Assembly (NCBI GenBank): GCA_022539475.1
Contig: VCMS01000435.1
Span: 1-52,278 of the forward strand
Reading direction: 5' to 3'
DNA: 52,278 nucleotides
Source of the DNA: Gracilaria domingensis
Taxonomy: Eukaryota > Rhodophyta > Florideophyceae > Gracilariales > Gracilariaceae
Shown: in pieces, positions 2,432 through 51,163 of the stretch
How positions within the stretch are numbered: the stretch's first letter is position 1
Layout of the letters: each line of letters begins with the position of its first letter
Made by a program: the position numbers and the translations under genes
Notes under the pieces: model-generated
What the model saw: only the letters and a program-made list of their open reading frames with translations
The model's database searches: none
What the model was told of the DNA's origin: nothing

Positions 2432-3200
2432 TGTGGGATGTTGACCCTGTGCTGTCACTGAAAACCAAAGTGCTGGGGAGCATGGGCTGTTTTGGAGGGT
2501 GCCGTTGGAAAGCGCATATGCGCCTCTGGCGAACTCAACGTGAAACGGGCTTCTGATTTGGCTACTGCAAATGGTCATATGCATTGTGGTTGGTACAAGT
2601 GTTGTGGCGCTAATGGGTTGTGTACGGTGTACACGGTGTAGCTAGTACACTGGGCATACTGTACATGATGCACAGGGTATACACGTATGTACGTGGACAT
2701 GTAGGACAGCTTGATGTAACTTGGCACTATGGTGAAGAGTTGATGCGGGTGTCAAGAGGATTACAGTGTGGTGTTGTTGGTGACGTAGGACTTGGAGTGA
2801 GTTTGCGGTGAAGTGTTGTTGGTGAGCTTGTACGTAACTTTTATGGTGTGGTGTACGGATTACAGTGTGTTGTCACTATGTGAATCTGTGCATGGTCATG
2901 GTTATGTGTAGGCACGTAACTTGTTGTGCACTGTTGTGCACTGTTGTGCTTTGTTGTTGTAAGCTGGCATGATAGTGTGGGAGTGTTACGATGTTATGTT
3001 AGAAGATGATTGGGAGTATTGAGTGTCTCTAGCTAGTGGTTTAGGTATTGCTTGGAGTTGGAGGTTTGCGATGGTTGCGCAAAGTAGTTCTATATAAGCG
3101 GTGACTGGAGCGCCTCCAGTAATTCCGAGCCAGAGCTGGCGAACTTCCTTCATTCCCCATCCTTTCTTCAACCTTCCCTTCTCAGCTTCAACCTCTATCA
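2432..3200 (+). repeat. Family A 3' LTR
   Basis: It starts TGTGGGATG (family consensus TGTTGGATG) and ends CTCTATCA. It follows a purine tract and the end of pol. It contains the GCGCATATGCGC-type palindrome region, the inverted CCAAT box, the GTGCAC-rich repeat zone, a TATATAAG box near 3095 and the shared GCCAGAGCTGGCGAACTTCC block. Several one-base indels distinguish it from the LTRs of copies 1-4. It is followed by the interior of a family B LTR, so this A copy probably inserted into a B LTR. Confidence 0.85.
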
Positions 3201-3702
3201 GTTTACAGGTACTTGTTGATGACGTGGGACTTGTGTGTCTGGTACCTACACTACGTTGTCGTGTGCGGACTACAGCGTGCAAGCAACACGTGAGGTGTAG
3301 TGTGATGTTCCGTAAGCACGGCTGGTCATGATGGTGAGGTTTTGCTTTGTGTGTATGCATGGTCGTGTTACTATGGTGAGCTGTCATATTGTTGACTGCA
3401 TTGATGTGTAGTGTTTGTGGTCTGCTGTCGAAATGTGTCGGTACACTGTCAGGGACGTGCATGGCTACTACATGGTGTGCATTGTTGTGCATTGTTGTGC
3501 ACTGCTGTGCAGTAGTGTACGGAATTTTTGTGCACTGTTTTACACTGTTGTGCGTTGTTGTGCACTGCTGTTGTAAGCAGTTTGGCACTGTTATCGTGTT
3601 ATGTCCGTAGATGATTGGTAGTATTGAGTGTCTCTGGTTAGTGAGTTGCATATTGGTCAGATGTGGAGTCACATGATGGAGTAGCGAAGAAGTGCTATAT
3701 AA
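3201..3702 (+). repeat. Family B LTR fragment (interior to TATA box)
   Basis: It matches the B LTR from the GTTTACAGGTACTTGTTG segment through the GTGCAC repeat zone and stops right after GTGCTATATA, where a second B LTR begins. The U5 end is missing here. The upstream boundary is the end of a family A LTR. Confidence 0.8.
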
Positions 3703-3779
3703 TGTTGGAAGTCATGCTGTCACTGACATCAAGCAGCTGAGATGGGTGAAGTCTAGAATGGTACTTGCTATGTGAAAGC
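3703..3779 (+). repeat. Family B LTR, first 77 bp
   Basis: It starts TGTTGGAAGTCATGCTG, the B LTR 5' end, and runs only 77 bases before a family A LTR start (TGTTGGATG) interrupts it. It abuts the TATA box of the preceding B LTR fragment. The same LTR start is seen at 13616, 44475, 48001 and 51596. Confidence 0.8.
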
Positions 3780-4551
3780 TGTTGGATGTTGACGCTGTGC
3801 TGTCACTGAAAACCAAAAGTGCTGGAGAGCATGGGCTGTTTTGGAGGGTGCCGTTGGAAAAGCGCATATGCGCCTCTGCGAAACTCAACGTGAAACGGGC
3901 TTCTGATTGGCTACTGCAAATGGTCATATGCATTGTGGTTGGTACAAGTGTTGTGGCGCTAATGGGTTGTTTTCGGGGTACACGTGTGTAGCTAGTACAC
4001 TGGGATACTGTACATGATGCACAGGGTACACACGTATGTACGTGGACATGTAGGACAGCTTGATGTAACTTGGGCACTATGGTGAAGAGTTGATGCGGTG
4101 TCAAGAGGATTACAGTGTGGTGTTGTTGGTGACGTAGGACTTGGAGTGAGTTTGCGGTGAAGTGTTGTTGGTGAGCTTGTACGTAACTGTTATGGTGTGG
4201 TGTACGGATTACAGTGTGTTGGCACTATGTGAATCTGTGCATGGTCATGGTTATGTGTAGGCACGTAACTTGTTGTGCACTGTTGTGCACTGTTGTGCTT
4301 TGTTGTTGTAAGCTGGCATGATAGTGTGGGAGTGTTACGATGTTATGTTAGAAGATGATTGGTAGTATTGAGTGTCTCTAGCTAGTGGTTAGGTATTGCT
4401 TGAGTTGGAGTTGTGCGATGGTTGCGCAAAGTAGTTCTATATAAGCGGTGACTGGAGCACCTCCAAGTAAATTCCGAGCCAGAGCTGGCGAACTTCCTTG
4501 CATTCCCCATCCTTCTCTGTCAACTTTCCTATCCAGCTATAACCTCTATCA
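3780..4551 (+). repeat. Hybrid LTR: A-type U3, B-type U5 tail
   Basis: It opens as family A (TGTTGGATG, the GCGCATATGCGC palindrome near 3863 and the A TATA box near 4438). After the shared GCCAGAGCTGG block the last 50 bases follow family B instead (TCAACTTTCC, then CCAGCTATAACC). It is followed directly by a primer site and a B-type leader, so it acts structurally as the 5' LTR of the B element that extends to 21406. The simplest explanation is recombination between A and B sequence within the conserved block. Confidence 0.75.
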
Positions 4552-4566
4552 GGTTATGGGCCCAGC
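4552..4566 (+). other. Primer-binding site (initiator tRNA-Met half type)
   Basis: GGTTATGGGCCCAGC starts at the base after the LTR. It is complementary to the anticodon stem-loop of eukaryotic initiator tRNA-Met (GCTGGGCCCATAACC, CAT anticodon). Drosophila copia is known to prime from this internal part of a cleaved tRNA. Confidence 0.85.
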
Positions 4567-5456
4567 CCCGCTGACCTCTGCCGTTGTCGTTCCTCTGAGG
4601 TTTCCCTTTCGCCGCTCTCCCTCACCGCGCCGTGTTGTTGAACGCCGTTTTTGATGTTTTCGATGTTTGTTTGCCGTCGTGTTTGTTGTCGTTGACCGGT
4701 TGGTGGTGTTGTATTTCCCTTTTGGTTTGCGTTCCTCCCTGAGGGCGTTTGGTGGTAGTGGTTCGACGTTGTTCTACTTTCGTGATTCTGTTTGGTTTCT
4801 CGTTCATTTTCGTTTTCGTCGATCGCTATCCGCTTTGTTTGTTTCTCGCCTCTGTTTTCGTTGTTGTGATCCCCGTGTCGTGTTTGCGGGTTCTGATCCG
4901 AGAGGTTGAGTACCGTTGTCGTTGAAGTCTGTGCACTTGTGTGTTGTGCTCAGCATTCGTTTTTCGTTGAAGTCCGGGCACTGCCTGTGTGCTCGGCATT
5001 TGTGGTGATCACTTGGGTTTCGGTGCGACGAGCGGTTGATCCGAGCAATCGGGGACGTTAGTCTGGCGGCTTGAACCAATTCGGACGCGCTGCGAGCGGC
5101 TCCCACCGGTCCTTCGGGGCAGATAACGGTGTCGGTCGGAAGACCTGGTAGTACCGCGAGGCTGAAGTTGACGGGGTGCCGTGACGTACTGCATCGAACA
5201 GGGGTGGTTCACCTTTGTTGTGTGTGACCTGACTGTGTGTTGGGTTCTTGATCTGTTGGGAAGACAAACTGAAACGAGCTTTTGATCCGTACTGCTGCGG
5301 TGGTGCGGGGAGGCGACGTGTCGTAGGCTGACCTCCTTTTCAGGATCAGGCCGCTTGTGAACTTGATTGTTTGCTTGCTAGAAGCGTACCTCGGTTTGTC
5401 ATAGTACCTGCAGTATCAGGGTCGCGCAAGTTCTTGCAAGAGACCAGAGAGGGTTT

Positions 5457-5640
5457 AACTTGGTGAAGGCATATCTTTGGTCACTAACCATCCTCTGGAC
5501 GTCTCGTAGAGAGCGACGCGCCTTCTCCTGGAACGCAGGAGGAGGTAGACAGAAGAAAGTCGTTTCCTACCCGGAGAGTCTCCGGGGGTCAGGGGTCCGA
5601 CTCCCTAGGGTACCAGGAATCTTAGTTCCTTATGCACCCG
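5457..5640 (+). ncRNA. Conserved structured leader RNA element
   Basis: The block opens with TGGTGAAGGCATATCTTTGG and ACTAACC, followed by CTGGACGTCTCGTA. Three successive hairpins follow: CTCCTG/CAGGAG, CCCGG/CCGGG and AGGGG/CTCCCT. It ends near GGAATCTTAGTTCC and CACCCG. The same block occurs in the leaders of all A, B and C copies. The C version carries paired base changes in the stems (see findings). Its function is unknown; RNA packaging, dimerisation or translation control are candidates. Confidence 0.6.
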
Positions 5641-5672
5641 ATCGCTTGCAGTTTGTTGTTGTTATGCTCGCT

Positions 5673-6342
5673 ACAGTTCAGGAGGTGGAGTGTTTCCTGC
5701 CTGAGACTGTGTGTGTGAGATTCGTTTATGACACTTCCTGGGTGTTTGTTGTTGAACATGTCTGAGCTCTTCTTTGTATCAACTTTGGAAGTTGCGATGT
5801 TACTTGTCCGTTGTTATCGTGACTTCCTTACGCAGGCTCAGAAGGTTGTCGTTATGTATGCCCGGGATGTGTGCTGTGCTCTTCGCTTTACTTATATTGT
5901 ACCGGAAGGTTGCTATTTGTTGCATGTCCGGTGTGTATGGAAGAGCTGTTTGACTCAGGAGGTTGAGTGTTTCATGCCTGAGTGTGTAGGACATCATTTG
6001 TATGGACGGGCCTCGAAGGTTGTCATTTGCAGTCCAGGATGCTGTGTTGCAATTCTCTTTGTGTGTTATTCGGGAAGGTTGCTGTGCTTTTGCATGTCCG
6101 CTGTTTGAAGAGATTTGTTGAGCTGGAAGGTTGCTCTGTTTTGCATGTCCAGCTGTTATGAAGTGATTTGAACGGAAGGTTGCTACTTGTGCATGTCGGT
6201 GTTCAGAAAATAGGTCTGCCATAAGTGCGTGTGTTTGCATGTCTGGTGAAGTACTGTGATTAATGTCTCGAGAGTTGTTATGTGTTACATGCTGAGCAAC
6301 ATTGTTTTCGGTGTCTAGAATGTGGTCACTGTGACGTCTAGA
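5673..6342 (+). repeat. Hairpin array of family B (shortest version)
   Basis: About 11 hairpins follow one another, each a 5-9 bp stem around a loop of roughly 17-22 nt that begins AGGTTG and ends CATG. Clear examples are the ACCGGA/TCCGGT, ACTCAGG/CCTGAGT and AGCTGGA/TCCAGCT stems. Several hairpins here are damaged by one-base losses. The middle units seen in the tandem copies at 46.9-47.2 kb are absent, so unit number varies between copies. Confidence 0.7.
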
Positions 6343-6467
6343 TCTTTTGAAGGACTCTGAGGTGCATTTGGTTCGAGAGAAGTTCAAGCCAGTGAGAGAG
6401 GAGGGTGTCAGAGTACATCCTCAGACTTAGGCTTTCACTGTCTGTTGTTGATATCTGTTGACCGGAA

Positions 6468-6471
6468 GCTG
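6468..6471 (+). other. Target-site duplication, left side of copy 1
   Basis: GCTG here is repeated at 13337-13340 on the other side of copy 1. One extra base can be assigned either to the duplication or to the LTR ends, so it may be 5 bp. The uninterrupted site (GGAAGCTGTTGTCTTCG) is present in the B copies near 47705 and 51298. Confidence 0.7.
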
Positions 6472-7254
6472 TGATAGAGGTTGAAGCTGAAAGGGAAGGT
6501 TGAAGAAAGGATGGGGGAATGAAGGGAAGTTCGCCAGCTCTGGCTCGGAATTTACTTGGAGGCGCTCGAGTCACCGCTTATATAGAACTACTTTGCGCAC
6601 CATCGCACAACTCCAACTCCAAGCAATACCTAAACCACTAGCTAGAGACACTCAATACTACCAATCATCTTCTAACATAACATGGTAACACTGCCACACT
6701 ATCATGACAGCTTACAACAACAAAGCACAACAACGCACAACAGTGCACAACCGTGCACATCAAGTTACGTGCCTACACATAACCATGACCATGCACAGAT
6801 TCACATAGTGCCAACACACTGTAATCCGTACACGCCACCATAACAGTTACGTACAAGCTCACCAACTAACACGTCACCACAAACTCACTCCAAGTCCTAC
6901 GTCACCAACAATACCACAGTGTAAACCTCTTGACAGCGCATCTACTCTTCACCATAGTGCCAAGTCACATGAAGCTGTCCTACATGTCCACGTACATACG
7001 TGTGTACCCTGTGCATCATGTACAGTATGCCCAGTGTACTAGCTACACACGTGTACCCCGGAAACAACCCATTAGCGCCACAACACTTGTACAACCACAA
7101 TGCATATGACCATTTGCAGTAGCCAATCAGAAGCCCGTTTCACGTTGAGTTTGCGCAGAGGCGCATATGCGCTTTTCCAACGGCACCCTCCAAAACAGCC
7201 CATGCTCCCCAGCACTTTTGGTTTTCAGTGACAGCACAGGGTCAACATCCAACA
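6472..7254 (-). repeat. 3' LTR of copy 1
   Basis: Read on the plus strand it runs from TGATAGAGG to CATCCAACA, the reverse complement of TGTTGGATG...CCTCTATCA. It carries the palindrome GCGCATATGCGC, an inverted CCAAT box, the GTGCAC repeat zone and a TATA box. Confidence 0.9.
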
Positions 7255-12553: not shown

Positions 12554-13336
12554 TGATAGAGGTTGAAGCTGAAAGGGAAGGTTGAAGAAAGGATGGGGAA
12601 TGAAGGGAAGTTCGCCAGCTCTGGCTCGGAATTTACTTGGAGGCGCTCGAGTCACCGCTTATATAGAACTACTTTGCGCAACCATCGCACAACTCCAACT
12701 CCAAGCATACCTAAACCACTAGCTAGAGACACTCAATACTACCAATCATCTTCTAACATAACATGGTAACACTGCCACACTATCATGACAGCTTACAACA
12801 ACAAAGCACAACAACGCACAACAGTGCACAACCGTGCACATCAAGTTACGTGCCTACACATAACCATGACCATGCACAGATTCACATAGTGCCAACACAC
12901 TGTAATCCGTACCGCCACCATAACAGTTACGTACAAGCTCACCAACTAACACGTCACCACAAACTCACTCCAAGTCCTACGTCACCAACAATACCACAGT
13001 GTAAACCTCTTGACAGCGCATCTACTCTTCACCATAGTGCCAAAGTCACATGAAGCTGTCCTACATGTCCACGTACATACGTGTGTACCCTGTGCATCAT
13101 GTACAGTATGCCCAGTGTACTAGCTACACACGTGTACCCCGGAAACAACCCATTAGCGCCACAACACTTGTACAACCACAATGCATATGACCATTTGCAG
13201 TAGCCAATCAGAAGCCCGTTTCACGTTGAGTTTGCGCAGAGGCGCATATGCGCTTTTCCAACGGCACCCTCCAAAACAGCCCATGCTCCCCAGCACTTTT
13301 GGTTTTCAGTGACAGCACAGACGTCAACATCCAACA
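12554..13336 (-). repeat. 5' LTR of copy 1
   Basis: The ends are TGATAGAGG and CATCCAACA on the plus strand. The few differences from the 3' LTR are one-base changes, for example at the GTACCGCC site and the GACGTCAACATCC end. The sense-strand TATA box (CTATATAAGCGG) is near 12660. Confidence 0.9.
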
Positions 13337-29522: not shown

Positions 29523-29934
29523 TCCCCAACACCAGTCAGTCACATCAACAGGTGAACCACCCCTGTTCGATGCGTACGTCACGGCACCCGTCACTTCAGC
29601 ACTCGCGTAACCAGGTCTCGACGACACGTTATCTGCCCGAAGGACCGTGGAGCCGCTCGACAGCGCGTCCGAATGTTCAAGCCGCCAGACTACGTCCCGA
29701 TTGCTCGGATCAACTGATCGTCGCACGACCAGTGATCACCACACTGCGAGCACCAGGCAGTGCCGACTTCAACGAAACGAATGCTGGCACAACACACAGT
29801 GCACAGACTTCAACGACAACGGTACTCACCCTCGGATCAGAACCGCAAACACGAACGGGATCACAAAACGAAACAGAGGCAAACCAAGCGGATAGCGATC
29901 GACGAAACGAAATGAACTAGAACCAACAGTGTGA
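29523..29934 (-). repeat. Decayed family B leader fragment
   Basis: It matches the inverted B leader at 40270-40710 (GGTGAACCACCCCTGTTCGATG, then GATAGCGATCGACGAAA). About one base in fifteen is missing, mostly one of a repeated pair, with almost no substitutions. It ends at the start of a family C LTR. There is no coding capacity. Confidence 0.75.
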
Positions 29935-30611
29935 TGTTGGATGGTGTCGATGCCTGCAGTCCTTGAATTGCTCCAAGTACCTGGAACCAAGTTGCAGGGA
30001 CATGCACTTGGGTACCCTCGCGCGAAAGCGCATATGCGCCTCTCCGTAACCCACGTGATACTGCAATATGATTGGCTACTGCAAATGCGTATATGCAACG
30101 TAGTGTGGACAAGTGACCTGGCTGTATGGGCAGGAGTGGCGGATGCACAAGTGTGCGCTGTGATTGCTGAAGTGTGCTAGTGCTGGCCAGTTATGCAGTA
30201 GCTGAGAATGTGCGAATACAGGCTATCAGGCGCTTTGCTCTATGTGCGATTCTAGGCTAGTACGAAGGATTTGGAGCGAATGTGCGATTCTGAGCTGCGC
30301 GAGGGGTTTGTTGCGCCAGATGGAAATGTTGATTTTAGAGCGATTTGGATCATGGAGTTGCATTGGATTTGGCGCGGTTGATTAGTTGTTTGAATTCGTA
30401 TGTGATTTGCGCGCGCTTCGTGTCAAGGTGTACACTTGACAGCGTGTGCTGTTATGTCTCATTCAGCGACGGCGGCGGTGCGCGTTAGTACTAGTAGGTT
30501 GCGATCGTCCCGTTCACTAAACTCGGTTGAAGGTGGCTACCCCTTTGTTTGTCTTACCTATCTTGTTCACATCTTTTCCTTTCTACTGTCTAACCTGCGT
30601 TCGTTACGTTA
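29935..30611 (+). repeat. Family C 5' LTR
   Basis: It starts TGTTGGATGGTG and ends CGTTCGTTACGTTA, just before a variant primer site. It is homologous to the inverted solo LTR at 42421-43149, which fixes both ends. It shares with family A the palindrome GCGCATATGCGC (30028-30039) and TGATTGGCTACTGCAAATG, but little else. Unlike most LTRs it ends TA rather than CA. Confidence 0.8.
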
Positions 30612-38220: not shown

Positions 38221-39005
38221 TGATAGAGGTTGAAGCTGAAAGGGAAGGTTGAAGAAAGGATAGGGGAATGAAGGGAAGTTCGCCAGCTCTGGCTCGTAAT
38301 TTACTTGGAGGTGCTCGAGTCACCGCTTATATAGAACTACTTTGCGCAACCATCGCACAACTCCAACTCCAAGCAATACCTAAACTACTAGCTAGAGACA
38401 CTCAATACTACCAATCATCTTCCAACATAACATGGTAACACTGCCACACTATCATGACAGCTTACAACAACAAAGCACAACAACGCACAACAGTGCACAA
38501 CCGTGCACATCAAGTTACGTGCCTACACATAACCATGACCATGCACAGATTCACATAGTGCCAACACACTGTAATCCGTACACGCCACCATAACAGTTAC
38601 GTACAAGCTCACCAACTAACACGTCACCACAAACTCACTCCAAGTCCTACGTCACCAACAATACCACAGTGTAAACCTCTTGACAGCGCATCTACTCTTC
38701 ACCATAGTGCCAAAGTCACATGAAGCTGTCCTACATGTCCACGTACATACGTGTGTACCCTGTGCATCATGTACAGCATGCCCAGTGTATTAGCTACACA
38801 CGTGTACCCTGGAAACAACCCATTAGCGCCACAACACTTGTACGAACCACAATGCATATGACCATTTGCAGTAGCCAATCAGAAGCCCGTTTCACGTTGA
38901 GTTTGCGCAGAGGCGCATATGCGCTTTTCAACGGCACCCTCCAAAACAGCCCATGCTCCCCAGCACTTTTGGTTTTCAGTGACAGCACAGGGTCAACATC
39001 CAACA
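38221..39005 (-). repeat. 5' LTR of copy 4
   Basis: It runs from TGATAGAGG to CATCCAACA. The sense TATA box is near 38330. It is followed directly by hairpin-array sequence of an inverted family B element. Confidence 0.9.
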
Positions 39006-39054
39006 ACCGCGACCTTCCGCTAATAACACACAAAGAGAATTGCAACACAGGCAT

Positions 39055-39832
39055 CCTGGACTTGCAAAATGACAACCTTCCAGGCCCTGTCCATACAAAA
39101 TGATATCCTACGCACTCAGGCATGAAATACTCAACCTCCTGAGTCAATTAGCCCTTTCATTCACACCGGACATGCAAACACATAGCAAACTTCCAGTGAC
39201 AACAAACTGAAACAAAGAGCAAAACAAACATCACAAGCAATGAAACAAACACTCAGGCATGAAACACTCAACCTCCTGAATCGAACAGCTCTTCCATAAC
39301 CCAGACATGCATACATGTAACAACCTTCTGGTAACATGAGAACAACATGGAGAGCAAAACACACATCACAAGTGATCAATAATACACTCAGGCATGAAAC
39401 ACTCAACCTCCTGAATCGAACAGCTCTTCCATAACCCAGACATGCATACATGTAACAACCTTCTGGTAACATGAGAACAACATGGAGGGCAAAACACACA
39501 TCACAAGTGATCAATAATACACTCAGGCATGAAACACTCAACCTCCTGAGTCAAACAGCTCTTCCATACACACCGGACAGGCAAACAAATAGCAACCTTC
39601 CGGTACAACAGAAGTAAAGCGAAGAGCACAGCACACATCCCGGGCATACATAACGACAACCTTCTGAGCCTGCGTAAAGAAGTCGCGATAACAACGGACA
39701 AGTAACATCGCAACTTTCCAAAGTTGATACAAGGAAGAGCTCAGACATGTTCAACAACAAACACCCAGGAAGTGTCATAAACGAATCTCACACACACAGT
39801 CTCAGGCAGGAAACACTCCACGTCCTGAACTG
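39055..39832 (-). repeat. Hairpin array of family B with a duplicated 135-bp unit
   Basis: About 12-13 hairpins, read in minus sense, with the loop pattern AGGTTG...CATG. A two-hairpin unit of about 135 bp (stems CCAGA/TCTGG and a CAGG/CCTG type) is repeated almost exactly, with the CCAGA stems at 39301 and 39436. The matching hairpin in the tandem copies has the stem ACCGGG/TCCGGT, so the stem has changed on both sides. Confidence 0.75.
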
Positions 39833-39866
39833 TAGCGAGCATAACAACAACAAACTGCAAGCGATC

Positions 39867-40056
39867 GGGTGCATAAGGAACTAAGATTCCTGGTACCCTA
39901 GGGAGTCGGACCCCTGACCCCCGGAGACCCTCCGGGTAGGAAACGACTTTCTTCTGTCTACCTCCTCCTGCGTTCCAGGAGAAGGCGCGTCGTTCTCTAC
40001 GAGACGTCCAGAGGATGGTTAGTGACCAAAGATATGCCTTCACCAAGTTAAACCCT
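39867..40056 (-). ncRNA. Conserved structured leader RNA element, inverted B copy
   Basis: Same block, B version, minus orientation; the CCCGG/CCGGG hairpin has the GGGT loop variant also seen at 46.5 and 50.0 kb. Confidence 0.6.
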
Positions 40057-40949
40057 CTCTGGTCTCTTGCAAGAACTTGCGCGACCCTGATACTGCAGAA
40101 ACTATGACAAACCGAGGTACGCTTCCAGCAAGCAAACAATCAAGTTCACAAGCGGCCTGATCCTGAAAAGGAGGTCAGCCTACGATACGTCGCCTCCCCG
40201 CACCACCGCAGCAGTACGGATCAAAAGCTCGTTTCAGTTTGTCTTCCCAACAGATCAAGAACCCAACACACAGTCAGGTCACACACAACAAAGGTGAACC
40301 ACCCCTGTTCGATGCAGTACGTCACGGCACCCCGTCAACTTCAGCACTCGCGGTACTACCAGGTCTTCCGACCGACACCGTTATCTGCCCCGAAGGACCG
40401 GTGGGAGCCCGCTCGACAGCGCGTCCGAATTGGTTCAAGCCGCCAGACTAACGTCCCCGATTGCTCGGATCAACCGCTCGTCGCACCGAAACCCAAGTGA
40501 TCACCACAAATGCCGAGCACACAGGCAGTGCCCGGACTTCAACGAAAAAACGAATGCTGAGCACAACACACAAGTGCACAGACTTCAACCGCAACGGTAC
40601 TCAACCCCTCGGATCAGAACCCGCAAACACGACACGGGGATCACAACAACGAAAACAGAGGCGAGAAACCAACAAAACTGATAGCGATCGACGAAAACGA
40701 AAATGAACTAGAAACCAAACAGAATCACGAAAGTAGAACAACGTCGAACAACTACCACCACAACGCCCTCAGAGAGGAACGCAAACCAAAAGGGAAATAC
40801 AACACCACCAAACCGGTCAACGACAAGAAACACAACGAAAAAAAAACATCGAAAACATCAACAACGGCGTTCAACAACACGGACGGCGGTGAGGGAGAGC
40901 GGCGAAAAGGGAAACCTCAAGACGAACGACAACGGCAGAGGTCAGCGGG

Positions 40950-40964
40950 GCTGGGCCCATAACC
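40950..40964 (-). other. Primer-binding site, inverted B copy
   Basis: In sense it reads GGTTATGGGCCCAGC, adjacent to the hybrid LTR. Confidence 0.85.
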
Positions 40965-41955
40965 TGATAGAGGTTGAAGCTGAAAAGGAAGGTTGAAGAA
41001 AGGATAGGGGAATGAAGGGAAGTTCGCCACCTCTGGCTCAGATTTACTTGGAGGTGTTTGAGTCACAACTTATATAGCACTTCCTCCCTACACCATCATG
41101 CGACTCCAACTCTGACCAGCATGCAACTCACTAACCAGAGACACTCAATACTACCAATCATCTACACACATAACATGGTAACAGTGCCAAACTGCTTACA
41201 ACAGCAGTGCACAACAACGCACAACAGTGTACAACAGTGCACAACAATTCCATACACTACTGCACAGCAGTGCACAACAATGCACAACAATGCACACCAA
41301 TATAGTAGCTATCAATACACGTCCCGGACAGTGTACCGACACATTTCGACAGCACACCACAAGCACCACACATCAATGCAGTCAACAATATGACAGCAGA
41401 CCATAGCAACGCGACCATGCATACACACAATGCAACACCTCACCATTATGACCAGACATGCTTACGGAACATCACATCACACTTCACGTGTTGCTTGCAC
41501 GCTGTAATCCCTACACGACACCGTAATGTGTACGTGCCAGGTACCCAAGTCCCACATCATCAACAAGTACCTGTAAACTACATGACGTAAGTCTCTTAGC
41601 TGCAACATGTTCCATTCATCCATACACACACATTTGCATGTAGCACAACTCAAACATGGTGTAAACTTCACAACACTGACAGTGCTGCCACCTGTACCTT
41701 GTGTGCACATACATAGCCTTCAACCCTGTACTTCATGACCACTGTACAACCTTTCATCGTTGTACCTTTTGGTCATCCCAGCTGAACGATAGCGTTCCAG
41801 TGTAGCCATAAACGTTCAACCCATACTGCGTATACCACACGACCACATAGTATACCAAACAGAACAACATCAATCTCGCTTTCACATAGCAAGGTACCAT
41901 TCTAGACTTCACACATCTCAGCTGCTTGATGTCAGTGACAGCATGACTTTCAACA
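40965..41955 (-). repeat. Hybrid LTR: B-type U3, A-type U5 end
   Basis: In minus sense it begins as family B (TGTTGAAAGTCATGCTG) and follows B through the GTGCAC zone and TATA box. Its last 45 or so bases are family A (TTCAACCTTCC...TTCAACCTCTATCA). This is the mirror image of the exchange at 3780-4551 and switches in the same conserved block. It interrupts a family A LTR at ACTCC (41956). Confidence 0.75.
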
Positions 41956-42415: not shown

Positions 42416-42420
42416 TTCAG
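42416..42420. other. Target-site duplication TTCAG of solo C LTR, left copy
   Basis: TTCAG at 42416-42420 is repeated exactly at 43150-43154. Removing the LTR and one copy restores the RNase H sequence GGCTTATTCAGCATGTCGG seen in the other copies. Confidence 0.9.
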
Positions 42421-43149
42421 TAACGCTGCGTGCGCAGGTTAGACAAAGGGAAATAAGGAAAATGTGAACAAGATGGGTAAGACAAACAAAGGGGGTAGGC
42501 CACCTTCGACCGAGTTTAGTGAACGGGGACGATCGCAACCTTCTAGTACTAGCCGCGCACCGCCGCCGTCGCTGCATGCGACATAACAGCACACGCTGTC
42601 AAAGTGTACACCTTGACAACGAAAGCGCGCGCAAATCACAATACGAATTCAAAACAACTAAATCAAACCGCGCCAAATCCAATGCCAACTCCATGATCCA
42701 TTAGTAGCCCCAAAAAATCAACATTTTCAATCCGGCGCATCAAACCCTCTCGCGCAGCTCAGAATCGCACATTCGCTCCAAAACCCTTCGCGATAGCCTA
42801 GAATCGCACATCTTGCAAAAACCGCCCAGTATAGCCTGTATTCGCACATTCTCAGCTACTGCATAAGTGGCCAACACTAGCAGACTCCAACCAATCACAG
42901 CGCACCACTTGTGCCATCCGCCACTCCTAGCCCATACAGCCAGAACCACTTGTCTAAACTACGTTGCATACACGCATTTGCAGTAGCCAATCATATTGCA
43001 GTATCACGTTGGGTTTGCGTAGAGGCGCATATGCGCCTTTCGCGCGAGGGTGCCCAAAAGTGCCCATGCTCCCCTGCAACTTTGTATTCCAAGTACTTGG
43101 AGCACCCTTGAGGGACTGACAGGCACTCGACCATGACCCAACATCAACA
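42421..43149 (-). repeat. Solo LTR of family C
   Basis: A 729-bp insertion, in sense TGTTGATGTTGGG...GCAGCGTTA, homologous to the LTR at 29935-30611. It carries the 16-bp palindrome AGGCGCATATGCGCCT (43023-43038) and the inverted CCAAT plus CTGCAAATG module. The flanking 5-bp duplication and lack of internal sequence show a solo LTR left by recombination between the two LTRs of a former full element. Confidence 0.9.
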
Positions 43150-43533: not shown

Positions 43534-44474
43534 TGTTAGAGGTTATAGCTGGGATCGGAAAGTTGACATGAGGAAGGATGGGGGGAATGAAAGGAAGTTC
43601 GCCAGCTCTGGCTCAGATTTACTTGGAGGTGCTTGAGTCACAACCTATATAGCACTTCTTCGCTACTCCATCATGGGACTCCAACTCTGACCAACATGCA
43701 ACTCACTAACCAGAGACACTCAATACTACCAATCATCTACAGACATAACATGGTAACAGTGCCAAACTGCTTACAACAGCAGTGCACAACAACGCACAAC
43801 AGTGTACAACAGTGCACAACAATTCCGTACACTACTGCACAGCAGTGCACAACAATGCACAACAATGCACACCAATGTAGTAACCATGCACGTCCCTGAC
43901 AGTGTACCGACACATTTCTACAGCACACCACGAGCACCACACATCAACGCAGTCAACAATATGACAGCCCACCATAGTAACACGACCATGCATACACACA
44001 ATGCAACACCTCACCATCATGACCAGCCATGCTTACGGAACATCACATCACACTTCACGTGTTGCTGGCACGCTGTAATCTGTACACCACACCGTAGAGT
44101 GTACGTGCCAGATACCCAAGTCCCACATCATCAACAAGTACCTGTAAACCACATGACGTCAGTCACTTAGCTGCAACATGTTCCATTCATCCATACACAC
44201 ACATTTGCATGTAGCACAACTCAAACATGGTGTAAACTTCACAACACTGACAGTGCTGCCACCTGTACCTTGTGTGCACATACATAGCCTTCAACCCTGT
44301 ACTTCATGACCACTGTACAACCTGTCATCGTTGTACCTTTTGGTCATCCCAGCTGAACGATAGCGTTCCAGTGTAGCCATAAACGTTCAACCCATACTGC
44401 GTATACCACACGACCACCATAGTATACCAAACAGAACAACATCAATCTCGGTTTCACGTATCAAGGTACCATTC
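43534..44474 (-). repeat. Family B LTR, inverted, lacking its first 52 bp
   Basis: It starts TGTTAGAGG on the plus strand (LTR 3' end in minus sense) and runs to GGTACCATTC, where it meets the start of a plus-strand B LTR. The first 52 bp of this LTR are missing. It forms the left arm of the large inverted repeat ending at 45467. Confidence 0.88.
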
Positions 44475-45467
44475 TGTTGGAAGTCATGCTGTCACTGACA
44501 TCAAGCAGTTGAGATGTGTGGAGTCTAGAATGGTACCTTGATACGTGAAACCGAGATTGATGTTGTTCTGTTTGGTATACTACGTTGCTGTGTGGTATAC
44601 TCAGTATGGGTTGAACGTTTATGGCTACACTGGAACGCTATCGTTCAGCTGGGATGACCACAAGGTACAACGATGACAGGTTGTACAGTGGTCATGAAGT
44701 ACAGGGTTGAAGGCTATGTATGTGCACACAAGGTACAGGTGGCAGCACTGTCAGTGTTGTGAAGTTTACACCATGTTTGAGTTGTGCTACATGCAAATGT
44801 GTGTGTATGGATGAATGGAACATGTTGCAGCTAAGTGACTGACGTCATGTGGTTTACAGGTACTTGTTGATGATGTGGGACTTGGGTATCTGGCACGTAC
44901 ACTCTACGGTGTGGTGTACAGATTACAGCGTGCCAGCAACACGTGAAGTGTGATGTGATGTTCCGCAAGCATGGCTGGTCATGATGGTGAGGTGTTGCAT
45001 TGTGTGTATGCATGGTCGTGTTACTATGGTGAGCTGTCATATTGTTGACTGCGTTGATGTGTGGTGCTCGTGGTGTGCTGTAGAAATGTGTCGGTACACT
45101 GTCAGGGACGTGCATGGCTACTACATTGGTGTGCATTGTTGTGCATTGTTGTGCACTGCTGTGCAGTAGTGTACTGAATTGTTGTGCACTGTTGTACACT
45201 GTTGTGCGTTGTTGTGCACTGCTGTTGTAAGCAGTTTGGCACTGTTACCATGTTATGTCTGTAGATGATTGGTAGTATTGAGTGTCTCTGGTTAGTGAGT
45301 TGCATGTTGGTCAGAGTTGGAGTCCCATGATGGAGTAGCGAAGAAGTGCTATATAGGTTGTGACTCAAGCACCTCCAAGTAAATCTGAGCCAGAGCTGGC
45401 GAACTTCCCTTGCATCCCCCCATCCTTCCTCATGTCAACTTTCTGATCCCAGCTATAACCTCTAACA
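44475..45467 (+). repeat. Family B LTR 1 of the tandem array
   Basis: 993 bp, TGTTGGAAG...CTCTAACA. It includes ATGCAAAT (octamer-type) near 44792, the hyphenated palindrome GAACGCTATCGTTC near 44634, a run of TTGTGCACTG-type decamers (about 45130-45230) and GCTATATAGG near 45349. A purine tract is not seen to its left; the neighbour is the inverted B LTR. Confidence 0.9.
45130..45235 (+). repeat. GTGCAC decamer array in B U3
   Basis: About ten imperfect copies of TGTTGTGCAC/TGTTGTGCAT in tandem upstream of the TATA box. GTGCAC is palindromic. A shorter version is present in every A LTR. This could be a cluster of factor binding sites. Confidence 0.6.
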
Positions 45468-45482
45468 GGTTATGGGCCCAGC
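45468..45482 (+). other. Primer-binding site, B tandem unit 1
   Basis: GGTTATGGGCCCAGC directly after the LTR. Confidence 0.87.
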
Positions 45483-46384
45483 CCCGCTGACCTCTGCCGT
45501 TGTCGTTCGTCTTGAGGTTTCCCTTTTCGCCGCTCTCCCTCACCGCCGACCGTGTTGTTGAACGCCGTTGTTGATGTTTTCGATGGTTGTTTGCCGTCGT
45601 GTTTCTTGTCGTTGACTGGTTTGGTGGTGTTGTATTTCCCTTTTGGTATGCGTTCCTCCCTGAGGGCGTTGTGGTGGTAGTTGTTCGACGTTGTTCTACT
45701 TTCGTGATTCTGCTTGGTTTCTCGTTCATTTTCGTTTTCGTCGATCGCTATCCGCTGTTGTTGGTTTCTCGCCTCTGTTTTCGTTGTTGTGATCCCCGTG
45801 TCGTGTTTGCGGGTTCTGATCCGAGGGGTTGAGTACCGTTGTCGTTGAAGTCTGTGCACTTGTGTGTTGTGCTCAGCATTCGTTTTTTCGTTGAAGTCCG
45901 GGCACTGCCTGTGTGCTCGGCATTTGTGGTGATCACTTGGGTTTCGGTGCGACGAGCGGTTGATCCGAGCAATCGGGGACGTTAGTCTGGCGGCTTGAAC
46001 CAATTCGGACGCGCTGTCGAGCGGGCTCCCACCGGTCCTTCGGGGCAGATAACGGTGTCGGTCGGAAGACCTGGTAGTACCGCGAGTGCTGAAGTTGACG
46101 GGGTGCCGTGACGTACTGCATCGAACAGGGGTGGTTCACCTTTGTTGTGTGTGACCTGACTGTGTGTTGGGTTCTTGATCTGTTGGGAAGACAAACTGAA
46201 ACGAGCTTTTGATCCGTACTGCTGCGGTGGTGCGGGGAGGCGACGTGTCGTAGGCTGACCTCCTTTTCAGGATCAGGCCGCTTGTGAACTTGATTGTTTG
46301 CTTGCTGGAAGCGTACCTCGGTTTGTCATAGTACCTGCAGTATCAGGGTCGCGCAAGTTCTTGCAAGAGACCAGAGAGGGTTTA

Positions 46385-46567
46385 ACTTGGTGAAGGCATA
46401 TCTTTGGTCACTAACCATCCTCTGGACGTCTCGTAGAGAACGACGCGCCTTCTCCTGGAACGCAGGAGGAGGTAGACAGAAGAAAGTCGTTTCCTACCCG
46501 GAGGGTCTCCGGGGGTCAGGGGTCCGACTCCCTAGGGTACCAGGAATCTTAGTTCCTTATGCACCCG
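46385..46567 (+). ncRNA. Conserved structured leader RNA element, B unit 1
   Basis: Same block as in the other leaders; CTCCTG/CAGGAG, CCCGG/CCGGG and AGGGG/CTCCCT hairpins present. Confidence 0.62.
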
Positions 46568-46600
46568 ATCGCTTGCAGTTTGTTGTTGTTATGCTCGCTA

Positions 46601-47568
46601 CAGTTCAGGACGTGGAGTGTTTCCTGCCTGAGACTGTGTGTGTGAGATTCGTTTATGACACTTCCTGGGTGTTTGTTGTTGAACATGTCTGAGCTCTTCT
46701 TTGTATCAACTTTGGAAAGTTGCGATGTTACTTGTCCGTTGTTATCGTGACATCCTTATGCAGGCTCAGAAGGTTGTCGTTATGTATGCCCGGGATGTGT
46801 GCTGTGCTCTTCGCTTTACTTCTGTTGTACCGGAAGGTTGCTATTTGTCTGCATGTCCGGTGTGTACGGAAGAGCTGTTTGACTCAGGAGGTTGAGTGTT
46901 TCATGCCTGAGTGTACTATTGATCACTTGTGATGTGTGTTTTGCTCTCCATGTTGTTTTCATGTTACCGGGAGGTTGCTACTTGTATGTATGTCCGGTGT
47001 ATGGAAGAGCTGTTTTGATTCAGGAGGTTGAGTGTTTCATGCCTGAGTGTTTGTTTCATCGCTTGTGATGTTTCTCTTTGCTCTTTGTTTCAATTTGTTG
47101 CCACTGGAAGATTGCTATGTGTCTGCATGTCCGGTGTGAATGAAAGAGCTGTTTGACTCAGCAGTTTAAGTGTTTCATGCCTGAGTGTGTAGGACATCAC
47201 TTTGTATGGACGGGGCCTGGAAGGTTGTCATTTTGCAAGTCCAGGATGCCTGTGTTGCAATTCTCTTTGTGTGTTATTCGCGGAAGGTTGCATTTTGCAT
47301 GTCCGCTGTTTGAAGAGATTTGTTGAGCTGGAAGGTTGCTCTCTTTTGCATGTCCAGCTGTTACGAAGGTGATGTTGAACTGGAAGGTTGCTACTTGTTG
47401 CATGTCCGGTGTTCAGAAAATCGGTCTTGAATCAGAAGGTTGCGTGTGTTTGCATGTCTGGTTGAAGTACTGTGATTAATGGTGCTCCGAGAGGTTGTTA
47501 TGTGTTACATGCTCGGAGCAACATTCGTTTTTCGGTGTCTAGAATGTGGTCACTTGTGGACGTCTAGA
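46601..47568 (+). repeat. Array of 16 hairpins with a conserved loop (family B)
   Basis: Hairpins at 46601-46636, 46708-46742 (weak), 46765-46794 (weak), 46829-46861, 46882-46912, 46966-46998, 47018-47048, 47102-47136, 47156-47186, 47216-47245, 47280-47306, 47326-47359, 47379-47410, 47430-47463, 47484-47519 and 47538-47568 (degenerate loop). The loop opens AGGTTG and closes CATG in most. The stems differ (ACCGGA/TCCGGT, ACTCAGG/CCTGAGT, GCGGA/TCCGC, AGCTGGA/TCCAGCT, AATCAGA/TCTGGTT, GCTCCGAG/CTCGGAGC) yet each is self-complementary. The array occupies the place of gag-pol. Its function is not known. Confidence 0.8.
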
Positions 47569-47576
47569 TCCCTTTT

Positions 47577-47948
47577 GTGAAGGACTCTGAGGTGCATTTT
47601 GGTTCCGAGAGAAGTTCAAAGCCAGTGAGAGAGGGAGGGTGTCAGAGTAACATCCTCAGACTTAGGCTCTCACTGTCTGTTGTTGATATCTGTTTGACCC
47701 CGGAAGCTGTTGTCTTCGTTGCCATACGAAGGATGAGTAAGAAGTTCAGAGTGTGTGACAAAAGAAGGGTGTTTCCAGAACATCCGAATCGTACAGAACA
47801 GAACTATGATCTTGGTATACCGGTAGAACGGTACAGCCGTGGGCTTGGACACACACTAACTGCACTTGATGTTTGGTTGTCACCGTTGGCCATCGTAAGG
47901 TTTATTTGCAGTAACATTGGTTTCTTGACTGCCCGACTTGTTACTTAG
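47577..47948 (+). other. Open frame of 123 codons in B 3' internal region, coding status doubtful
   Basis: An ATG-started frame (MKDSEVHFGS...) runs to the stop at 47946-47948. I recognise no domain; there is no signal peptide or membrane segment. The identical frame in unit 2 (51172-51543) is uninformative because the units are near-identical duplicates. In the older B copy (6350-6471 plus 13337-13510) the frame is broken. It may be chance, or a small protein; the palindromic CTTCG...CGAAG near 47711 suggests RNA structure as an alternative. Confidence 0.25.
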
Positions 47949-47988
47949 CATGTACTTGACCAGGAGCGCTGGTTGCTTGAAGTCAGTA

Positions 47989-48000
47989 ACAGAGGGAGGG
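47989..48000 (+). other. Polypurine tract, B unit 1
   Basis: ACAGAGGGAGGG directly precedes the B LTR at 48001. Confidence 0.82.
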
Positions 48001-48986
48001 TGTTGGAAGTCATGCTGTCACTGACATCAAGCAGTTGAGATGTGTGGAGTCTAGAATGGTACCTTGATACGTGAAACCGAGATTGATGTTGTTCTGTTTG
48101 GTATACTACGTTGCTGTGTGGTATACTCAGTATGGGTTGAACGTTTATGGCTACACTGGAACGCTATCGTTCAGCTGGGATGACCACAAGGTACAACGAT
48201 GACAGGTTGTACAGTGGTCATGAAGTACAGGGTTGAAGGCTATGTATGTGCACACAAGGTACAGGTGGCAGCACTGTCAGTGTTGTGAAGTTTACACCAT
48301 GTTTGAGTTGTGCTACATGCAAATGTGTGTGTATGGATGAATGGAACATGTTGCAGCTAAGTGACTGACGTCATGTGGTTTACAGGTACTTGTTGATGAT
48401 GTGGGACTTGGGTATCTGGCACGTACACTCTACGGTGTGGTGTACAGATTACAGCGTGCCAGCAACACGTGAAGTGTGATGTGATGTTCCGTAAGCATGG
48501 CTGGTCATGATGGTGAGGTGTTGCATTGTGTGTATGCATGGTCGTGTTACTATGGTGAGCTGTCATATTGTTGACTGCGTTGATGTGTGGTGCTCGTGGT
48601 GTGCTGTAGAAATGTGTCGGTACACTGTCAGGACGTGCATGGCTATGGTGTGCATTGTTGTGCATTGTTGTGCACTGCTGTGCAGTAGTGTACTGAATTG
48701 TTGTGCACTGTTGTACACTGTTGTGCGTTGTTGTGCACTGCTGTTGTAAGCAGTTTGGCACTGTTACCATGTTATGTCTGTAGATGATTGGTAGTATTGA
48801 GTGTCTCTGGTTAGTGAGTTGCATGTTGGTCAGAGTTGGAGTCCCATGATGGAGTAGCGAAGAAGTGCTATATAGGTTGTGACTCAAGCACCTCCAAGTA
48901 AATCTGAGCCAGAGCTGGCGAACTTCCCTTGCATCCCCCCATCCTTCCTCATGTCAACTTTCTGATCCCAGCTATAACCTCTAACA
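48001..48986 (+). repeat. Family B LTR 2 of the tandem array (shared)
   Basis: 986 bp, nearly identical to LTR 1; a short stretch near 48645 has lost ACTACATT. It serves as 3' LTR of unit 1 and 5' LTR of unit 2, because purine tract precedes it and primer site follows it. Confidence 0.9.
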
Positions 48987-50119: not shown

Positions 50120-51163
50120 CAGTTCAGGACGTGGAGTGTTTCCTGCCTGAGACTGTGTGTGTGAGATTCGTTTATGACACTTCCTGGGTGTTTGTTGTTG
50201 AACATGTCTGAGCTCTTCTTTGTATCAACTTTGGAAAGTTGCGATGTTACTTGTCCGTTGTTATCGTGACATCCTTATGCAGGCTCAGAAGGTTGTCGTT
50301 ATGTATGCCCGGGATGTGTGCTGTGCTCTTCGCTTTACTTCTGTTGTACCGGAAGGTTGCTATTTGTCTGCATGTCCGGTGTGTACGGAAGAGCTGTTTG
50401 ACTCAGGAGGTTGAGTGTTTCATGCCTGAGTGTACTATTGATCACTTGTGATGTGTGTTTTGCTCTCCATGTTGTTTTCATGTTACCGGGAGGTTGCTAC
50501 TTGTATGTATGTCCGGTGTATGGAAGAGCTGTTTTGATTCCAGGAGGTTGAGTGTTTCATGCCTGAGTGTTTGTTTCATCGCTTTGTGTTTTTTTTTTTT
50601 TTTTTTTTTTTTTTTTGGGTTGATGTTTCATGCCTGAGTGTTTGTTTCATCGCTTGTGATGTTTCTCTTTGCTCTTTGTTTCAATTTGTTGCCACTGGAA
50701 GATTGCTATGTGTCTGCATGTCCGGTGTGAATGAAAGAGCTGTTTGACTCAGCAGTTTAAGTGTTTCATGCCTGAGTGTGTAGGACATCACTTTGTATGG
50801 ACGGGGCCTGGAAGGTTGTCATTTTGCAAGTCCAGGATGCCTGTGTTGCAATTCTCTTTGTGTGTTATTCGCGGAAGGTTGCCGTGATTTTGCATGTCCG
50901 CTGTTTGAAGAGATTTGTTGAGCTGGAAGGTTGCTCTCTTTTGCATGTCCAGCTGTTACGAAGGTGATGTTGAACTGGAAGGTTGCTACTTGTTGCATGT
51001 CCGGTGTTCAGAAAATCGGTCTTGAATCAGAAGGTTGCGTGTGTTTGCATGTCTGGTTGAAGTACTGTGATTAATGGTGCTCCGAGAGGTTGTTATGTGT
51101 TACATGCTCGGAGCAACATTCGTTTTTCGGTGTCTAGAATGTGGTCACTTGTGGACGTCTAGA
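50120..51163 (+). repeat. Hairpin array of family B, unit 2
   Basis: Same hairpins as unit 1 in the same order, with the poly-T insertion between the seventh and eighth. One hairpin (GCGGA/TCCGC, near 50872-50902) has a loop four bases longer than in unit 1 (TTGCCGTGATTTTGCATG) with the stem unchanged. Confidence 0.78.
50589..50616 (+). repeat. Run of 28 T flanked by a short direct repeat
   Basis: The T run sits between two copies of GTTTCATGCCTGAGTG plus TTTGTTTCATCGC. Unit 1 has a single copy and no T run. Confidence 0.85.

Follow-up and report, generated by a model that had tools for sequence, protein, structure and literature searches.

A tandem array of covarying hairpins at the gag position of a non-coding LTR retrotransposon, probably of a red alga

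Among the described systems compared here, LARDs such as Sukkula come closest to the element reported below, which we call family B. They are plant non-autonomous LTR elements with well-conserved RNA secondary structures, and B resembles them in having LTRs, stretches like a PBS and a PPT, no coding capacity and a structured non-coding internal domain, while mobilisation in trans by a coding partner is presumed (PMC7215508). B differs from LARDs in its tandem array of one covarying hairpin, in a leader that it has in common with a copia-type element and in its host, probably a red alga. The TRIMp3 elements (TRIM/Cassandra, Helenus and Ajax), LTR elements too, share with B the lack of coding capacity and the presence of an RNA-related part, but theirs is like 5S or tRNA and sits in the LTR (PMC7215508, PMC10886601), and B, whose array is internal, has no Rfam or tRNA match. 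Retrozymes, again non-coding LTR elements with a conserved RNA motif, carry a hammerhead ribozyme in each LTR (PMC4918200), whereas the window shows no Rfam match. The way in which B's array would work is that of packaging signals in single-stranded RNA viruses, where many stem-loops have one coat-protein recognition motif; those signals are dispersed in the genome and bound by coat protein (PMC6281560), while B's, which likewise have one recognition-like motif in common, are clustered in a non-coding element and their binding is putative. In the literature searched, by titles and the beginnings of abstracts, such an array was not found described, which does not imply its absence from print. 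LARDs have LTRs of about 4.5 kb and an internal domain of about 3.5 kb; with LTRs of about 0.99 kb and an internal part of about 2.5 kb, B appears LARD-like in its conserved structured non-coding interior, as seen in covariation and stem-blind pairing, without the size of LARDs.

The window, by which we mean the whole stretch of 52,278 nucleotides analysed, is part of contig C435 in a genome searched over 77.9 Mb and 680 contigs, and nested LTR elements crowd it. The gag-bearing relative of B, family A, is by its open frames a Ty1/copia-type element: in a domain search these match Retrotran_gag_2, rve and RVT_2, with a zinc knuckle (CCHC) that is marginal, at 20.4, 20.6, 21.2 and 21.7 bits against a Pfam cut-off of 20.8. 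The best species-named relatives of the A proteins come from Chondrus crispus (39-44% identity), one EukProt transcript record reaches 82%, and these relatives suggest that the host is probably a florideophyte red alga. The genome holds 153 gag matches, several with long open frames, which make up a possible helper lineage.

By its paired LTRs, its PBS- and PPT-like stretches and its lack of gag-pol, B classes as a non-autonomous LTR retrotransposon; its features in the window are collected in Table 1. The two LTRs of copy W3 are 99.2% identical (1 mismatch and 7 gap positions), so that W3 is recent, and its termini, TGTTGG...TAACA, give the TG..CA ends of LTR retrotransposons. W4 follows W3 in tandem; beyond the window (L093) the 3' LTR of W4 is incomplete. 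On its other side W3 borders on a truncated B LTR in inverted orientation (43534-44475). The PBS-like stretch is presumably similar to the complement of the initiator tRNA-Met anticodon arm and suggests priming from an internal (half) initiator tRNA-Met, the mode of Drosophila copia; the sequence that precedes the 3' LTR, GAGGGAGGG, is PPT-like as judged by look only. W2, W3 and W4 are non-coding: a tblastn search with an 841-aa part of the A frame gave no gag-pol match in them at E 0.01, and in W3 no sense reading frame stays free of stops for more than 132 aa. On the fetched loci the sole tblastn match of A gag-pol lies at the edge of L027 and reads as a neighbouring element.

Protein-less itself, B belongs to the Ty1/copia lineage by the LTR end and leader that it has in common with A. 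This part (45179-46590 and its copies) is 83.6-84.4% identical to the window's family A, and homology to the B leader is found in 18 of 20 gag-upstream regions elsewhere, at 79-91% by piece and mostly near 85%; the two exceptions have a short pre-gag stretch only (L075) or no B-leader match (L080). The homology stops at 46590, in a tract rich in TTG; the presumed gag start of A would lie about 130 bases further on, and the hairpin array starts where the homology stops. The proposal in an earlier note on this DNA that the array replaces gag-pol thus holds by position.

Table 1. Position, strand and basis of the family B features in the window
Feature	Position	Strand	Evidence or remark
B copy W1	~3200-6472, continued at 13336	+	split by A insertion at 6472
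Array of W1, 8 model units at E<=0.01	5834..6291	+	covariance model
B copy W2	39006-41955	-	interrupted by A insertion at 39005
Array of W2, 10 model units	39052..39671	-	covariance model
B copy W3, whole	44475-48986	+	LTR pair comparison
5' LTR of W3, starts TGTTGGAAG, ends CTCTAACA	44475..45467	+	993 bp
PBS-like GGTTATGGGCCCAG	45468..45481	+	directly after 5' LTR; by look of sequence
Non-coding leader common to B and family A	45468..46590	+	sequence identity
Hairpin array of W3, 13 model units and three hairpin-like neighbours	46604..47569	+	covariance model, which the neighbours do not match
U1, degenerate, TTCAGG/CCTGAG, AGGTTG lost	46604..46632	+	no covariance-model match
Hairpin-like GATGTTAC/GTGACATC without motif	46724..46754	+	imperfect in most copies
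U2, loop conserved, outer stem broken by two A-C mismatches	46762..46797	+	covariance model
U3, ACCGGA/TCCGGT	46826..46864	+	56.1 bits
U4, ACTCAGG/CCTGAGT, inner helix UGA/UCA	46880..46914	+	42.7 bits
U5, ACCGGG/TCCGGT, variable among copies	46963..47001	+	covariance model
U6, ATTCAGG/CCTGAGT, U-G pair in 39/40 distinct arrays	47016..47050	+	
U7, CACTGGA/TCCGGTG, U-G pair in 42/43 distinct arrays	47100..47138	+	
U8, decayed in W3	47154..47188	+	19.7 bits
U9, CCTGGA/TCCAGG	47213..47248	+	covariance model
U10, GCGGA/TCCGC	47276..47310	+	covariance model
U11, AGCTGGA/TCCAGCT	47324..47361	+	covariance model
U12, ACTGGA/TCCGGT, U-G pair in 35/45 distinct arrays	47376..47413	+	
U13, AATCAGA/TCTGGTT	47428..47465	+	covariance model
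U14, TGCTCCGAG/CTCGGAGCA, inner helix UGU/ACA	47483..47520	+	covariance model
Hairpin GTCTAGA/TCTAGAT, different loop	47537..47569	+	no covariance-model match
PPT-like AACAGAGGGAGGG	47988..48000	+	directly before 3' LTR; by look of sequence
3' LTR of W3 = 5' LTR of W4	48001..48986	+	986 bp; one LTR common to the tandem copies
Array of W4, 13 model units	50281..51115	+	covariance model

The unit of the array consists of a variable outer stem, a 4x2 internal loop 5'AGGU/5'UG, a 3-bp inner helix UGN/N'CA and a variable terminal loop. What the earlier note took for a constant loop is constant in its letters, but these really form the internal loop and the inner helix. The third inner pair takes C-G, U-G, A-U and U-A forms and is unpaired in 2 of 20 units. 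From units of B's own family we built a covariance model of 38 positions, R1, which at E<=0.01 gives the unit counts of Table 1 (those of W3 at 46762-47520), and 45 of its 46 window matches at E<=10 lie inside the four B arrays, all matches in arrays being on the B sense strand. Matches in B arrays arise by construction; it is the absence of matches elsewhere that is informative. The 16 hairpins counted in the earlier note are recovered as 13 R1 units together with U1 and the hairpins at 46724-46754 and 47537-47569, which R1 does not match. When W3 was folded in a 1271-nt context, the minimum free energy structure contained at least 4 of the 5 tested outer pairs in 11 of the 13 units and all three inner pairs in 10, U2 and U8 being left without an outer pair and U5 without an inner one. 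In 10 of the 13 units this fold engages the CA of CATG in pairing, which makes the suggestion of kissing loops through CATG unlikely. Elsewhere U8 is better preserved, with 35 of the 37 copies that satisfy the loop rule pairing at 5 or more of 6 positions, mostly as ACTCAGG/CCTGAGT; the variable pair of U13 is U-G in 22 distinct arrays, C-G in 21 and G-G in 1. The loop of U2 resembles that of U9. Downstream of the array, at 47623-47675, a perfect 9-bp inverted repeat, CAGTGAGAG/CTCTCACTG, encloses a purine-rich tract and lacks the loop motif.

The strongest evidence for a selected fold comes from the comparison of paralogous units, which are older than the copies, the evidence at the level of copies being weaker. 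We chose units blindly with respect to their stems, as AGGTTG, 6-12 bases and CATG with at most one mismatch, a rule that U1 fails. Among the 13 modal units so chosen, 63 of 65 cells at stem positions 2-6 pair, against 31 or 34 when the arms are slid by one base and 19 or 22 when slid by two. Permuting the 3' arms among the 13 units never reached the observed pairing in 200,000 trials (p 5e-6), and permuting them among 8 stem families gives p 7.5e-5. The counts cover 50 arrays, of which 46 were fetched and 4 come from the window; 47 are distinct, the three identical ones being omitted from distinct-array counts, and the arrays of L066 and L067 are left out. In these 50 arrays, 521 of 601 units have at least 5 of their 6 innermost positions paired, or 521 of 553 without U2; three of the 604 units found, in columns 167, 740 and 874, occur in one copy each, none paired at 5 of 6, and are left out. 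Outside the arrays (102 kb), none of 51 distinct motif matches pairs at 5 or more of 6, a control that includes regions fetched for holding the loop motif. The earlier note had the stems varying yet always pairing, and in further copies of B pairing is indeed mostly kept, except that all 48 copies of U2 fall short of 5 of 6 pairs while keeping the loop, that U5 pairs in 31 of 43 copies and is broken in 12, and that U8 has decayed in W3.

Moreover, the stems covary. In 20 picked units, which are modal or common forms including both U2 forms and excluding U5 forms with a shifted 3' arm, 93.0% of 200 cells are paired as against 76.9% after shuffling, and the covariation score of 0.592 exceeds every one of 500 shuffles (mean 0.281) and all slid registers (0.025-0.112). 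Eight of ten pairs, namely all 7 outer pairs and the third inner pair, changed on both sides (shuffled mean 6.2; 8 of 500 as high). A set of 98 distinct units fitted to the model, a fitting that itself favours structure, is 91.1% paired against 73.1% shuffled and scores 0.578 against 0.250, while two of five measures, double-change pairs and pair types, are no higher than in shuffles. With a cruder loop rule, whose 98 distinct flank pairs include mis-set ends and chance matches, the mean stem run is 3.31 against 1.92 permuted (0 of 2000 as high). The stems have diverged into at least 7 paired families with AGGTTG and CATG kept across paralogues, and the array, its constant letters and its compensated stems, as first described, are borne out with the corrections given above. 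Covariation among the paralogous units supports well the reading that a nucleic acid fold, with a constant part that is recognised, was under selection.

Comparison between copies of the same unit supports selection modestly. Private changes, found in one array, are about as frequent in stems (0.396 per site) as in spacers (0.381), which suggests that copies decay freely after insertion. Stems and AGGTTG have few variants common to at least 3 arrays, at 12 of 192 and 4 of 72 sites; such variants are more frequent in spacers (57 of 412), CATG (5 of 48) and terminal loops (12 of 111). On a tree, with U1, U2, U5 and 46724-46754 omitted from the counts, internal and terminal changes number 22:84 in stems against 110:238 in spacers (Fisher p 0.037), as compared with 13:33 in AGGTTG (p 0.74), 11:18 in CATG (p 0.54), 22:35 in terminal loops (p 0.29) and 46:135 in stems and constant letters together (p 0.16), so that on the internal branches no extra constraint on the constant loop letters relative to spacers is detected. 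Among the 84 stem changes on terminal branches, pairing is lost in 51, kept in 25 and gained in 4, where a mismatch becomes a Watson-Crick pair; on internal branches it is lost in 11 of 22 and kept in 9, and 2 create a G-U. Internal branches therefore appear only slightly better at keeping pairs, some of them presumably representing duplications of dead copies. Compensation between copies of one unit is rare, U5 having G-C, A-U and broken forms, and U2 (46762-46797) is the exception in that its loop is kept in 48 copies over a broken stem.

Which molecule would fold? In the sense orientation G-U pairs, and its complement A-C does not. The 31 distinct units present in at least 3 copies, which are related by descent so that their cells are not independent events, contain 23 G-U, 6 A-C and 16 other mismatch cells: at the six innermost outer positions 157 Watson-Crick, 11 G-U, 6 A-C and 12 other, and in the inner helix 77 Watson-Crick, 12 G-U, no A-C and 4 other. 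Four of the 6 A-C cells come from U2, which also adds 4 inner G-U, and 2 from U5 forms. Recent changes, on terminal branches, are evenly divided, with 20 from Watson-Crick to G-U and 20 to A-C. Folding z-scores of -2.41 for the sense and -6.40 for the antisense strand (20 shuffles each) do not inform on the strand, perhaps because the GU-rich sense strand folds well even when shuffled. The inherited excess of G-U over A-C, together with the sense-strand matches, makes sense RNA the likelier folded molecule, ahead of the single-stranded DNA that had been proposed alongside it. Selection on the folded molecule, as originally suggested, is thus upheld among paralogues and modestly between copies, and that it acts on sense RNA is supported but not decisive.

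In the sample examined the hairpin belongs to B alone, with rare occurrence elsewhere possible. R1 finds it in none of 20 gag-upstream regions at E<=1, picked from the 153 gag matches to span 90-100% gag identity, nor in the window's family A copies. Genome searches with the B array scored the best 40 of 57-85 candidate places each, and all those listed match, the copy number of B being a lower bound. The pattern AGGTTGC..GCATG, which covers one inner-pair variant, has 358 matches in the genome against 70 for the reversed control. Eighteen regions fetched from the first 100 or so pattern matches listed included two further B arrays (L066 and L067), and the 16 others gave five R1 matches at E<=1: L056 with 19.5, L058 with 17.7, L060 with 14.9, L055 with 12.9 and L059 with 9.4 bits. 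The last four cover only the loop, the reason for which their regions were picked; L056, with a bulged 4-bp stem, we read as chance in a 78-Mb genome. Rfam has no match in the window at the gathering score and none up to E 5 in 46590-47720, and ARAGORN in its bacterial setting found no tRNA. On these negatives we rejected an origin from a host RNA (5S, tRNA, snRNA or ribozyme).

To our knowledge, little is settled about how LTR elements without coding capacity obtain packaging and reverse transcription in trans. We propose, with a probability of a little under 0.4, that the B RNA offers a protein many binding sites at once and that this multivalent platform most likely serves its capture by the Gag of a helper. 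B is a non-coding, LARD-like derivative of a Ty1/copia lineage whose sense RNA would carry 7-15 hairpins (median 12 among the arrays fetched, some of them truncated) right after the leader and just before the missing gag site. With a constant internal loop on variable stems, the hairpin looks made for protein recognition; the array may dock an RNA-binding protein, our best guess being the Gag, with its zinc knuckle (CCHC), of whichever family mobilises B, and docking would help B RNA, in competition with coding transcripts, to be captured or packaged. Gag is our first choice because the array lies between the leader and the missing gag, because G's are exposed in it and because B needs foreign proteins; the zinc knuckles of retroviral nucleocapsids prefer exposed G's. 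The main argument against Gag is the absence of the hairpin from coding relatives, since a signal that Gag needs would be expected in Gag's own RNA, and the particular candidate of the earlier note, the Gag of family A, is weakened by that absence from the 20 gag-upstream regions and the window's A copies. The earlier note also suggested a decoy for small RNAs; the variable stems and terminal loops argue against decoys that work by sequence complementarity. A bolder version, that a protein-less retrotransposon evolved a dedicated, amplified array of a new recognition motif, the AGGU/UG hairpin, which is missing from its coding relatives and gives it preferential access to a foreign Gag, in effect a parasite's super-packaging signal, we put forward tentatively, as somewhat unlikely. 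The array, which matches no Rfam family, is modular, countable and carried on the partner's leader, and it makes the question of trans-packaging testable: which protein binds, and does the number of units track success?

With the hairpin missing from the coding relatives sampled, a host protein and structured filler stay in play. The first, unlikely though the best placed of the alternatives, is that the hairpins bind a host RNA-binding protein, by which a long non-coding transcript would be exported from the nucleus, stabilised, localised or spared silencing. Presence of the hairpin in B and its absence from the gag-bearing relatives would follow if a coding RNA gets this function otherwise, and a constant internal loop on covarying stems suits any protein; no host RNA with the motif was found, however, in Rfam or at the 16 non-B sites among the pattern matches listed. 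Less probable again is that the array is filler, giving a compact or RNase-resistant RNA of suitable length, with a loop mainly inherited from the duplicated ancestral unit. The units do sit in tandem duplications with 137-bp and 52-bp periods, no higher conservation of the loop letters than of spacers is detected between copies, the downstream 9-bp hairpin has no motif, and LARDs are described with well-conserved RNA secondary structures (PMC7215508). Mere filler, though, would let the loops drift like the stems, whereas in the paralogues AGGTTG and CATG were retained across at least 7 diverged but paired stem families, and there is covariation in the third inner pair.

Quite improbable is a purely mutational origin, in which intrastrand template switching (quasi-palindrome correction) or gene conversion keeps the arms complementary. 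Such a process would be at home in arms that are palindromic in DNA too, in arrays that duplicate and in the mixed alleles of U5, and mismatches did become Watson-Crick pairs in 4 of 84 terminal stem changes (0 of 22 internal). But correction yields Watson-Crick pairs, and U-G prevails in U6, U7 and U12; recent changes break pairs (51 of 84) far more often than they mend them, and both the inherited excess of G-U over A-C and the constant internal-loop letters would be left unexplained. A function at the level of DNA, as palindromic transcription factor sites or cruciforms, is very improbable, for although the same palindromes are present in DNA, the stem letters vary with pairing kept, the prevailing G-T pairs break the DNA palindromes and the constant letters flank the loop asymmetrically.

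Two other repeats were seen along the way. The sequence AGGTTGCAGTTCGGAGCTGCATG (L062:386-408), apparently an unrelated dispersed repeat, recurs often among the pattern matches listed, and its copy in L062 has no stem. In the window, a segment of about 0.7 kb (42420-43149) lies inside a family A fragment and has an 86.7% identical relative in inverse orientation at 29932-30599.
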